Origin: Acidobacteriota bacterium
GTDB lineage: Bacteria > Acidobacteriota > Vicinamibacteria > Vicinamibacterales > SCN-69-37
Length of the DNA stretch: 64,000 bases
Assembly (NCBI GenBank): GCA_020853395.1
Contig: JADYYY010000011.1
Coordinates: 1 to 64,000 of the forward strand
Reading direction: 5' to 3'
The notes below the pieces were generated by a model. The model made no database searches. It had not been told where the DNA came from and saw only the letters and a program-made list of their open reading frames with translations. Below are positions 54,320 to 57,542 of the stretch, piece after piece. Every line of letters begins with the position of its first letter. The stretch's first letter is position 1. Made by a program: the position numbers and the translations under genes.

Positions 54320-54395
54320 GGGCCCGTAGCTCAATTGGCAGAGCAGCAGACTCTTAATCTGTTGGTTGAAGGTTCGATTCCTTCCGGGCTCACCA
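54320..54395 (+). tRNA. tRNA-Lys(CUU)
   Basis: A 76-base cloverleaf. Acceptor GGGCCCG pairs with CGGGCTC (one G-T), anticodon stem GCAGA/TCTGT encloses CTCTTAA (anticodon CTT), and the T arm is GAAGG-TTCGATT-CCTTC with encoded CCA. Its 3' 46 bases (54350-54395) are repeated exactly at 57400-57445, so it is the integration site of the islet that follows. The gene itself remains intact. Confidence 0.96.
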
Positions 54396-54493
54396 ACTCA
54401 CTTCGTTCGCTGGTTTCGCTCCGGAAGGCCTCAGGCACGCGGCTCCACCCTTCGGGCTCGCCAACGTGCACGATTCCTTCCGGGCTCACCAAC
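54350..54493 (+). repeat. Left direct repeat (attL-like)
   Basis: 144 bases, identical to 57400-57542 apart from one substitution with a one-base indel after the CCA (54396-54398 area) and one mismatch (A in GGCTCCACCC). It contains the tRNA-Lys 3' end and a second 21-base copy of it (CGATTCCTTCCGGGCTCACC plus A) at 54471-54491. Confidence 0.9.
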
Positions 54494-55544
54494 TCACTTC
54501 ATCCACGGCCTCGCCAGGCTCCAAGTAGCTGAAAAGTGGTGCGGTTACGGCGGGTTCGATTGAATCGAATCCCGTCGTACGCGATGCCTTCAGGGAAGAA
54601 CAGCAGTTGCAGCCGCTCCTGTAGTCGAGCGACGCCTGGACCCAGAGGTCGGAGGCGCGCGGCAGAATGCGTTCTGCGAACGCCAGGATGCCCTGTACGT
54701 CAAGTTCGTCCACGGCCTCGGCGTGGTGGTCGATCTGGGCGAGCGTCAGCTCCTCGCGCAGCTTGTCGCGCTGGCGGCCGTAGCTGGTGACGTCGATCGA
54801 CTCCGCGTAGAGGAACGCCTCGTCCAGGCGATCGAGCTTCTGCTGGATGGCCTTCACCCGACGCTCCTGCTCCCCCGTCCGTTCGTGCGCCTCGGCTCGT
54901 TGCTGTTCCCACACGTAGAGGATGCGGTCCTTGACCATCCGCATGTAGCCGGCCGTCGGCTGCAGGAGCGCCAGTTCGTCGGCGAACGCGCCTTCGAGCA
55001 CGGCCTTGCTGACGTTCACGGCGCGACACTGCTTCTGGCAGTGGTAGTACGCGTAGTGGCCGTTGCGCCCTCTCGACCAACTGCCGGTGAGCGGCCGACC
55101 GCACGCCTCGCACCGCACGAAACCGCGCAGCGGGAAGTCCGGATGGTTCCGTTGACGCGGACCGGCGACGACGATCCGACCGTCGAGGACGGCCTGGGCG
55201 CGGTAGAACGTGGCCTCGTCCACGAGCGGATCGAAGTTGCCCTTGGTCGACACGCCGTAGTCCGGGCTCTCGACTTTGCCGGCGTAGATCGGGTTCCGCA
55301 TCATCTGGCCGAAGCTCTGTGGTGACAGCTTCAGTCCCTTCCGGCTGCGCAGGCCGGCTTCGGTCGCACGGGCAATCACTTCCTGCTTGGTGTAATGGCC
55401 CGTCGCGAGATCCTCGAAGGCCTGCCGCACGAGTGCGCCCCGCTCAGGGTCGTGCACGAGGCTCGTGTTCGACCACTTCGGCGCGTTCAAGTAGCCGAGC
55501 GGTGCCGGGAATGTCCAGCGTCCGAGTTCAAGCGCGGCCTTCAT
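54486..55544 (-). CDS. Serine recombinase lacking its catalytic domain
   Basis: The 352-residue frame begins exactly at the 'Recombinase' domain of large serine recombinases (MKAALELGRWTFPAPLGYLN). It continues through it, the zinc ribbon (FVRCEACGRPLTG ... CQKQC) and a coiled-coil region (about 220-290, QQRAEAHERTGEQERR). The N-terminal resolvase domain with the nucleophilic Ser (about 140 residues) is missing. The ATG overlaps the stop of a 36-codon frame resembling a tyrosine-integrase arm domain. Its 3' end reaches into the left repeat. Without catalytic residues it cannot cut DNA; it could be a relic or a DNA-binding accessory protein. Confidence 0.8.
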   Translation of the reverse strand: MKAALELGRWTFPAPLGYLNAPKWSNTSLVHDPERGALVRQAFEDLATGHYTKQEVIARATEAGLRSRKGLKLSPQSFGQMMRNPIYAGKVESPDYGVSTKGNFDPLVDEATFYRAQAVLDGRIVVAGPRQRNHPDFPLRGFVRCEACGRPLTGSWSRGRNGHYAYYHCQKQCRAVNVSKAVLEGAFADELALLQPTAGYMRMVKDRILYVWEQQRAEAHERTGEQERRVKAIQQKLDRLDEAFLYAESIDVTSYGRQRDKLREELTLAQIDHHAEAVDELDVQGILAFAERILPRASDLWVQASLDYRSGCNCCSSLKASRTTGFDSIEPAVTAPLFSYLEPGEAVDEVSW

Positions 55545-55651
55545 GCCTGGCTAGCCTCGTCCTTCGTGCGCAGTTTCTTCTTGCTGGTCTGCCGCTCGCC
55601 CTGGAACCAGAAGTCGAAGTGCCAGCCGCCGTTCTTGAAGTAGACACTCAT
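55541..55651 (-). CDS. 36-residue arm-domain-like fragment of an integrase
   Basis: The frame reads MSVYFKNGGWHFDFWFQGER, then QTSKKKLRTKDEA, ending TGA at 55543-55541 within the ATG of the recombinase fragment (ATGA overlap). The pattern resembles the N-terminal arm-type DNA-binding three-stranded sheet of tyrosine recombinases, which begins SVYKRxxxWWxDFxxxGxR. A tyrosine integrase would fit a tRNA-3'-end site. No catalytic part follows. Too short for certainty. Confidence 0.45.
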   Translation of the reverse strand: MSVYFKNGGWHFDFWFQGERQTSKKKLRTKDEASQA

Positions 55652-55686
55652 TACGCGCAGGTCGCCGGGTGCGCCGGCTCACCGAG

Positions 55687-56460
55687 TCAGTTGGGCCTTG
55701 TCGTGATGAGCCTGAAGGTCGTCACGCGCGAGCTGCTGATTACCGTGACGCGGAACTGGTACCGTCCAGGCGTCGCCAGGTTCGTGCTCATCTCGCGGTA
55801 CTCGCCGTTGCCAGGGTACGGATCGAACACAAGGTCGCCGCGCGAGACCTGATCGCCTGTGGATGGGTTGTAGATTTCCAGGCTGAGCAACGCGTCGTCC
55901 CCGTTGTAAATCAGCAGCGCGTCGACGCGACCTGGTTGAGTGGTGGTGAACTCGAAGACCTTGCATGGGCCGACGTCGAACGAGAAGCTCAGTCCTGAGG
56001 TGCAACGAGTATCGCCACCACTGATCTCTCCAGTGAACGTCTCTGCGCGAACATTCGACCCCACGATCCCGGTGCCCAATACCGGAACCGATGTTTCTCC
56101 GCTGGTCTGATTACCAATGATGCGGAGCGAGCCCGAGTAGGTCGTGGCAGCCTCTGGCGCGAAGACCAGGTGCACGGTCTGTGTCTCGCCGGGAACCAGC
56201 GTCGCTGTTCTCAGCGTCGAGTAGAACCCACTCGGCGCGATGACGTTGGAGATCGTGAGCGTCGCGTTCCCTGAGTTCGTGACGCGATACTCTCGCTGCA
56301 CCTTCGTGCCCACGGTTGTGGCGCTGAAGGTGAGACTGCCGGCGACGCCAAGGACGCGCGTCGTCGAAGGTGTTGGCGTCGGGCTGGGGCCAGTCGGAGA
56401 ACTCTTGCTGCAACCGCTCAACGCGAGCGAGACGGCGAGCAGTGCGGGAAGTAGTTTCAT
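55687..56460 (-). CDS. Lipoprotein with choice-of-anchor/HYDIN-like beta domain
   Basis: A 257-residue protein with lipoprotein signal ending ALSGC (Cys17) and a Ser/Pro/Thr-rich linker (STRVLG starts the domain). Residues 40-130 are an ASPM/HYDIN-like immunoglobulin fold (GSLTFSATTVGTKVQREYRVTNSGNATL). Residues 145-257 are a second beta domain with CTSGLSFSFDVGPCKVFEF (two Cys, probably disulfide), resembling pre-peptidase C-terminal/adhesion modules. It should sit on an outer-membrane or surface face. Part of the tRNA-Lys islet. Confidence 0.82.
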   Translation of the reverse strand: MKLLPALLAVSLALSGCSKSSPTGPSPTPTPSTTRVLGVAGSLTFSATTVGTKVQREYRVTNSGNATLTISNVIAPSGFYSTLRTATLVPGETQTVHLVFAPEAATTYSGSLRIIGNQTSGETSVPVLGTGIVGSNVRAETFTGEISGGDTRCTSGLSFSFDVGPCKVFEFTTTQPGRVDALLIYNGDDALLSLEIYNPSTGDQVSRGDLVFDPYPGNGEYREMSTNLATPGRYQFRVTVISSSRVTTFRLITTRPN

Positions 56461-56478
56461 GGCGTAAGGGGCCCCGTG

Positions 56479-57156
56479 CTACTTCAGGCGCGCCGCGTTG
56501 CGTACAGACCGAATGGAGATGGCATCACACTGCCGCTCGCCATCTGCCGTGACGACGACGAGATTGATGCCGCTGTCGTCGTAGAGATCGCCGGCACGGG
56601 CCCCGTCGAATGTCACCGTTGCCCGGCTGTAATTGACCTCGGCTCCGGCGGCATTCTTCCACTGCCTTGCTTCGAGGCTCGGTTCGCCGCGCTGCTCGAG
56701 CAGCACCTTCTTGCCGATGATCGAGCGAAACATCACCTTCGACACATCGGACGGGAGATTTGGCGCGAGGTCGGAGTCCTCATCCGGCAGGCGAGGTGTT
56801 ACAACCACCGATAGGTCCGGCGTTAGCCATGCTGAATCGACGTCGGTGGCGGTGAACGGTTTGCCGGAGCGTGCGGCATCCCACGCTGCCAGGGCTATCC
56901 GGCCACGCGCCCCGAGAAACAGGATATCGTAGCTGGCCCTGCCAGCGTTCATGGCGCCTTGCACAGCATAGCCAGCGAGACCCAACGCGCCGAGGCCGGA
57001 GGTGCGTTTCGCGGTGCACAGGTAACCCGCCTTTCGCACTTGTCCGGCGCGCCCAAGCGCGATCGCTTTATCGATCTCAGCCTGGGGAAGCGTCTGAGCG
57101 TAAAGGTGGGGTGCGAGCGACAGGCCGATCAGAACGATGGCGACGCGATTCATCAT
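56479..57156 (-). CDS. Exported hypothetical protein of the islet
   Basis: The start at 57156 follows an AGGAG seven or so bases upstream (the next Met codon is 57153) and gives 225 residues. A signal peptide (VAIVLIGLSLAPHLYAQ) precedes an unrecognised domain with a helix (QAEIDKAIALGRAG), GGGL-poor loops and several beta strands (DLSVVVTPRLPDE). One Cys pair is present (YLCTAK and ERQCDAI). Together with the lipoprotein it is cargo of the islet; no function can be offered. Confidence 0.7.
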   Translation of the reverse strand: MMNRVAIVLIGLSLAPHLYAQTLPQAEIDKAIALGRAGQVRKAGYLCTAKRTSGLGALGLAGYAVQGAMNAGRASYDILFLGARGRIALAAWDAARSGKPFTATDVDSAWLTPDLSVVVTPRLPDEDSDLAPNLPSDVSKVMFRSIIGKKVLLEQRGEPSLEARQWKNAAGAEVNYSRATVTFDGARAGDLYDDSGINLVVVTADGERQCDAISIRSVRNAARLK

Positions 57157-57399
57157 GGGAGGGCTCCTGTGTCTAGCCGACCTGACGATGTCGGCCGGTC
57201 TGGTCGTCCACAATCCGTAGGCAGCATGGTGGCGGAAGTGTAACCGGCTCGGACCAGCCGGCGGGACTTTGGCGGGACTGATGTTCCGACAGGCAGGGAA
57301 TGATCAGCAAAACCGCGGTTCAGGCACTCCACTGCCCCGCCCTGCCGTCCGAACAGCAACTGATAGACTTCGCGATACTTAAGCCTGATTCATAGGCGC
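57157..57399. other. Islet-internal spacer
   Basis: No gene is seen between the secreted-protein gene and the right repeat. The sequence is of lower GC than the host and shows no obvious homology or strong hairpin. It presumably holds the promoter of the minus-strand islet genes. Confidence 0.4.
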
Positions 57400-57542
57400 A
57401 CTCTTAATCTGTTGGTTGAAGGTTCGATTCCTTCCGGGCTCACCATTCACTTCGTTCGCTGGTTTCGCTCCGGAAGGCCTCAGGCACGCGGCTCCGCCCT
57501 TCGGGCTCGCCAACGTGCACGATTCCTTCCGGGCTCACCAAC
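57400..57542 (+). repeat. Right direct repeat (attR-like)
   Basis: 143 bases matching 54350-54493. It carries the tRNA-Lys 3' half from the anticodon loop through CCA (57400-57445), then the downstream 95-base segment with the second 21-base tRNA end (57520-57540). The 5' half of the tRNA is absent, so only a partial tRNA sequence is present here. Confidence 0.9.

Follow-up and report, generated by a model that had tools for sequence, protein, structure and literature searches.

The islet beside the tRNA-Lys(CTT) gene in a 64,000-nucleotide stretch of an Acidobacteriota bacterium (assembly GCA_020853395.1, contig JADYYY010000011.1, positions 1 to 64,000; C11:1-64000 of a draft genome that comprises 21 contigs and 4.28 Mb, referred to here as the window) is probably a dead mosaic (a probability of roughly 85%), in which two elements were stacked at one tRNA gene and a deletion fused them. 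A reading made previously from the letters of this stretch (the sequence-only reading) had proposed that a deletion fused two genes into a relic, and this was supported as follows: homology to serine integrase genes ended at position 55547, the remaining fragment differed from its nearest relative by four one-base insertions or deletions (indels), and the adjoining 36-codon frame was not conserved. The features concerned are given below.

54320..54395, plus strand: intact tRNA-Lys(CTT), the attachment target (ARAGORN; Rfam tRNA model).
54350..54493, plus strand: left copy of the direct repeat, comprising the tRNA 3' half from the anticodon loop, a spacer of ~76 bp, and a second copy of the tRNA end (last ~22 nt).
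54396..54493, plus strand: tRNA-flank repeat unit, i.e. the spacer and the second tRNA 3'-end copy (sequence comparison).
54471..55547, minus strand: stretch with homology to a full-length serine integrase gene of the tRNA-Lys-targeting type, over the 3' two thirds of that gene (DNA comparison).
54486..55544, minus strand: open frame of 352 aa, putative remnant of a serine integrase gene, with Recombinase domain and zinc ribbon and no catalytic domain.
55541..55651, minus strand: frame of 36 codons that may be the beginning of a gene for a tyrosine integrase (weak pairwise similarity).
55547..55548, no strand: junction at which the serine-integrase homology ended in five of five relatives (DNA comparison).
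57400..57542, plus strand: right copy of the direct repeat, comprising the tRNA 3' half (57400-57445) and then a flank unit.

The 352-aa frame contained PF07508 (Recombinase; 37.1 bits) and PF13408 (Zn_ribbon_recom; 37.6 bits), both above the cut-off, and the Pfam search did not find PF00239 (Resolvase; the N-terminal domain with the catalytic serine) in it; a 352-residue serine recombinase starting at the recombinase domain, as described in the sequence-only reading, was thus borne out. Relatives were found in 24 of 60 genomes, the best of which (71-81% identical) were open frames of 528-756 codons that began well upstream of the start codon of the window frame; a Resolvase domain was present in the one of these that was tested for domains. 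At the DNA level, homology halted abruptly at 55547 in all five relatives compared (L080, L079, L053, L083, and L104), and at its other end it abutted the second tRNA 3'-end copy of the flank unit. The nearest relative, L080, showed 89% identity over 1078 columns with four one-base gaps: two of these indels shifted the frame for ~30 codons, and the other two put the gene end out of frame with the tRNA-coded tail. The right end typical of the serine elements (AGTTGGAACC, one mismatch allowed, both strands) was not found in the 64-kb window. From these comparisons, the 352-aa frame is a relic fragment of a full-length serine integrase gene. Since the N-terminal catalytic part has been lost and four frameshifting indels are present relative to the nearest relative, the protein is predicted to be unable to recombine DNA by itself.

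The direct repeats that had been noted to duplicate the 3' half of tRNA-Lys around 3 kb were confirmed: the copies of 144 and 143 bp were 97.9% identical over 144 columns, lay 3 kb apart, and were the only ones in the 4.28-Mb genome. The first base of the repeat was position 31 of the tRNA, where the anticodon loop borders on the stem, and the repeat extended 98 bp beyond the tRNA. Nested in each repeat copy, 96 bp further downstream, the final ~22 nt of the tRNA occurred a second time (54472-54493 and 57521-57542). Between the copies, frames of 225 aa, 257 aa, 36 codons, and 352 aa were all located on the minus strand.

The cores shared within the serine integrase family (see below) are 9-15 bp, as opposed to the window repeat of 144 bp, which starts in the anticodon loop. 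When 193 genomes were scanned for the 3' half of tRNA-Lys, 64 had a match, and several of these carried two or three matches inside a span of 1-12 kb. Islets were read in eight genomes (G002, G009, G037, G049, G125, G191, G192, and that of the window), and the repeat start at the anticodon-loop edge was also found in the seven other than the window's. A PF00589 match inside the islet was confined to G191 and G192; the other six islets had none, including that of the window, although its repeat does span the tRNA from the anticodon loop to the 3' end. G047 had only a partial match. No tyrosine integrase was detected in the window islet either by a home-made profile or by PF00589 (nine genomes); PF00589 was relied upon because the L184 integrase escaped the home-made profile. 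Since the repeat is 144 bp long from the anticodon loop and the G191 and G192 islets hold PF00589, the outer repeat most likely stems from a tyrosine-type element or from what is left of one. Islets at tRNA-Lys of ~1.2-11 kb, flanked by tRNA 3' halves of at least ~46 nt and having no PF00589 match inside, were also observed (L178-L182; G009:C211, G002:C1, G037:C25, G049:C299 (two), and G125:C12); these may be cassettes that lack an integrase and are mobilized in trans, or islands that have decayed.

The overlap by ATGA of the 36-codon frame (55541-55651) with the 352-residue frame (54486-55544), claimed in the sequence-only reading, holds. The resemblance of the 36 codons to the arm domain of a tyrosine integrase is only suggestive: two in-register, weak matches to the N-termini of tyrosine integrases (L026 and L030) were found, while a profile match was lacking. 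Because L026 and L030 had been found by the 36-aa query itself, the shuffle result of 1/1000 was biased; in an unbiased repeat against 19 integrases not chosen by the query, 43 of 2000 shuffles were equally good. The assignment of the 36 codons to an arm domain is therefore weakly supported. A search of 149 genomes, later extended to 193 genomes of the class, gave, apart from the window, nothing below E 0.039, so that no conservation of the two-frame arrangement was seen, and a plasmid tblastn with the 36-aa frame returned three chance hits only.

The dead mosaic may have arisen in the following order. A tyrosine-type element with a 144-bp attachment region would have made the outer repeat, and a serine element would then have entered the inner tRNA end of the left copy. 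A deletion would have joined codon ~36 of an upstream gene, perhaps the integrase of the tyrosine element, to approximately codon 142 of the serine integrase gene (GGC-ATG in ...RAGMKAAL). Both catalytic regions would have been lost in this way, together with the serine element's right end, whereas two cargo genes would have stayed behind. The ATGA overlap would be a by-product of this deletion junction.

Several results weigh against this history. No intact copy of the window islet was found, nor was a syntenic empty tRNA-Lys site, both of which were looked for in relatives: eight family loci lacked a match to either flanking protein or to the right flank. The 36-aa frame had no match among Pfam and PHROG profiles even at E<=10. 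In G191 and G192, the tyrosine integrase was located elsewhere in the islet or in another orientation, which makes the order of the two elements tentative. Furthermore, the fragment is still open across 352 codons, which is not required of a fast-decaying pseudogene.

A single-element history, to which we give perhaps one chance in four, involves the decay of one serine element, with the outer repeat produced by homologous recombination or by duplication of the tRNA flank and the 36 codons being a chance frame. The absence of PF00589 from the islet and of database matches to the 36 codons is in its favor, as are the tandem flank units at other tRNAs, which had no integrase nearby in the stretches read; it leaves the start of the repeat at the anticodon-loop edge to be accounted for, which the window shares with seven other islets, two of them (G191 and G192) with a tyrosine integrase. 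The small DNA-binding operon suggested as an alternative in the sequence-only reading fared considerably worse and is improbable. In it, an arm-type peptide and a recombinase without catalytic domain would bind the repeats, and a recombinase such as the tRNA-Glu-type integrase on C2 would act in trans. Both frames are open and overlapping, and the same genome has a full-length relative at tRNA-Glu that has a right end and is nested in the Lys clade; however, the 36-codon frame was absent from 193 genomes, the four indels include a scrambled stretch, the tRNA-coded end has been lost, and no serine-type right end remains for a trans-acting integrase. An assembly artefact joining two different loci is the least probable explanation of all, since, draft of 21 contigs though the genome is, the stretch is located 54 kb into a contig of 440 kb, the two copies of the repeat are not identical and hence were resolved, and homology left of the junction runs on as far as the tRNA copy present locally.

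The serine integrase family itself targets tRNA 3' ends, tRNA-Lys(CTT) included, so that a serine fragment is not out of place at this site. The scan of named genomes gave 38 loci, of which 26 showed at least 46% identity; after three without the gene 3' end (L101, L106, and L116) were dropped, 23 remained. Most of the genomes are metagenome bins, and contig ends truncate several elements. A full tRNA (ARAGORN) overlapped the 3' end of the gene, in antisense and at a fixed offset, in 13 of the 23 loci: Lys(CTT) in four, Ala(GGC) in five, and Glu(TTC) in four. A 3' fragment of a tRNA was found at the gene end in eight further loci. Fragment lengths by BLAST were 47 nt in L080, 48 in L089, 45 in L081, 35 in L084 and in L104, 25 in L086, and 17 in L096; in L085, 10 nt were given by BLAST and the remainder by eye. 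Outside these eight loci, 8 nt of tRNA were left in L088 and a tRNA-like end was recognized in L095, both by eye only. The premise of the sequence-only reading that tRNA 3' ends are sites of tyrosine integrases, an overlap reported in PMC10654092, therefore does not extend to this serine family. A tRNA was also present at six of 12 more distant loci (Ala(CGC), Glu(CTC), and four Met(CAT)), in bins named Adlerbacteria, Saccharibacteria, and Bacteroidales; in two of these loci, it was 46 bp and 126 bp past the aligned end. Phage and plasmid collections contained only relatives below 60% identity.

In a tree of 34 proteins, the target labels required five changes versus a shuffled mean of 17.7, and the window was placed within the tRNA-Lys clade as sister to L080 (88% support). 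Since the tRNA-Glu integrase on C2 of the window's own genome was nested among Lys-type ones, a change of target is suggested for it. Two intact relatives were tested for domains: Resolvase, Recombinase, and zinc ribbon were all over the cut-off in L004, and the same three were found in L199, the zinc ribbon being below its cut-off. The intact relatives are, as judged by their domains and positions, tRNA-targeting serine integrases, the nearest ones at tRNA-Lys(CTT). In addition to the window, the same genome contained a complete-looking serine element with a tail at tRNA-Glu(TTC) (G000:C2:241540-249641; L051) and a broken one at tRNA-Ala(GGC) (G000:C8:18930-23556; L052).

At the far end of the elements, the conserved half-site AGTTGGAACC (integrase strand) was located beside 9-15 bp of tRNA end. 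When read in the integrase frame, it encoded the conserved tail SWN[QRHP][ILV]xxWLxxLxxLRxxA (~19 aa), as a rule followed by a stop; instead of the initial S, two tails (L065 and L198) had T and a third (L099) had N. When joined by script, the right ends were in frame with their own integrase in 17 of 17 distinct cases. This count started from 26 motif rows, 20 in frame and six not. The six left out (L062 at distance 13639, L063, L070 and L091 at 5237, L100, and L102) were motif matches that either fell within integrase sequence or arose by chance and had no core at the tRNA, and three of the 20 (L086, L089, and L091) were duplicates, their contig being present in a second collection as well. 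Six loci (L104, L084, L066, L052, L097, and L101) had a tail but no core of at least 7 bp, or no complete integrase, and lie outside the frame count. Over 23 tails, the pairwise difference at codon positions 1, 2, and 3 was 0.453, 0.335, and 0.635, respectively (permutation p of 0.0016, which is too good since the rows are related); the third position was the most variable, as expected of a protein and not only of a binding site. In the integrated form, the gene ended in tRNA-antisense residues, ...REGIEPSTRRLRVCCSAN for Lys and ...TGIEPVTS for Ala. From this arrangement, attP is predicted to lie within the integrase gene, such that integration swaps the conserved tail for a tRNA-antisense one.

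The predicted free form is more than our own construct because the gene was seen unsplit: in the viral contig L199, a full-length integrase ran into such a tail, with no tRNA in the 9.9 kb covered, and at the inner junctions of the arrays in L062 and L070, integrase, core, and tail read through unbroken. The integrase of L198 likewise ran into a tail, but this gene was broken mid-way. A motif-free repeat search for tails at 12 loci (L108-L112, L098, L094, L100, L092, L079, L082, and L087) gave none that was convincing; all had less than 9 kb of upstream sequence, and three had none. Since 21 of 25 tails ended in Ala, and by analogy with mycobacteriophages (PMC9262239), the tail of the free form is possibly a degron; alternatively, it may be a part of directionality control. 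In tandem arrays, the inner junction regains the tail, and array copy number could thereby reset such a switch. Tentatively, and with slightly less than even odds, the window may be regarded as a fossil of a bacterial serine integrase family dedicated to tRNA genes, in which recombination would be a state switch that exchanges the tail for a tRNA-antisense peptide.

Intact relatives resembled large serine recombinases of the phiC31/Bxb1 type in domain order (PF00239, PF07508, and PF13408) and length (~505-513 aa), and likewise shared a core, here 9-15 bp between the tRNA end and the right end; they differed in that the target is a tRNA 3' end, and the window copy lacks the catalytic domain. 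In streptococcal rumA-type integrative and conjugative elements (ICEs), a direct repeat is present in the target gene at one end and in the serine integrase gene at the other, and integration changes the C-terminus of the integrase (PMC4701971). The arrangement in the present family matches such a C-terminal exchange, with 3' parts swapped on integration. On the other hand, rumA is a protein-gene target and both reading frames change, whereas here the tRNA is read in antisense, the far-end tail is conserved, and sub-clades use different tRNAs. The archaeal suicidal integrases (SSV1, pTN3, and pT26-2) also have attP in their own gene, altered by integration; however, they are tyrosine recombinases, stated to be archaea-only (PMC8371274), and are cut in two, whereas a Resolvase-type catalytic domain and the exchange of a short tail are found here. 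Mycobacteriophage integration-dependent immunity, with attP in a repressor gene and a tyrosine-type integrase (PMC9262239), is similar in its mostly Ala-ending tails. C-terminal exchange by a serine integrase is thus already in print (rumA), and the tRNA-antisense version is new as far as found: our literature searches, to which the novelty is confined, gave no published serine integrase with a tRNA-coded (antisense) tail.

The remaining features of the islet are the two cargo genes.

55687..56460, minus strand: lipoprotein-like cargo frame of 257 aa with an ASH/Ig-like domain (frame list, Pfam; "lipoprotein-like" by eye).
56479..57156, minus strand: cargo frame of 225 aa (from ATG) with a signal-peptide-like N-terminus by eye (frame list, Pfam).

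Lipoprotein and secreted-protein cargo had been claimed previously: both frames are present, and their two descriptions are judgments by eye. The Pfam search of the 225-aa frame gave no match. Distant homologs of both cargo proteins were located ~0.8-1.2 kb from tyrosine integrases (G191:C43:15308-17556, L357; G002:C3:28383-30991, L358), which showed no resemblance to the 36 codons. In the window, tRNA-Arg(TCG), tRNA-Arg(CCG), and tRNA-Lys(CTT) form a row, the order of which is kept in family relatives.

A unit of ~95 bp similar to the flank unit (a spacer with ..TCAGGC..CGGCTCCGCCTTCGGCTCGCC.. and, duplicated from the tRNA next to it, the final ~20 nt) was found directly behind many tRNAs (Met, Pro, Leu, Arg, Asp, Lys, and Ala), including the window (54396-54493 and 57446-57542), L328-L347, L066, L067, L178, and L186, with an array of 5.2 copies in L328. 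A model of the unit matched 32 of 162 genomes at E<=0.01, weak matches (e.g., L334 and L335) not being at tRNAs. In 14 of 17 cases, no unlike tRNA matched the downstream copy as well as its own tRNA did, and no Rfam match above the cut-off other than tRNA was obtained for the units of six loci. Since units were located behind tRNA-Lys 3' fragments in L336, L337, and L342, and in L342 also behind an apparent right end of a serine element, flank units and elements share sites.

Genome engineering relies heavily on serine integrases, and what steers them between insertion and excision is a central question. If true, a tRNA-targeting family that swaps its tail would offer a naturally occurring test case for directionality control, as well as landing sites of a new class. 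The window islet is only a dead member of this family, but it led to it.

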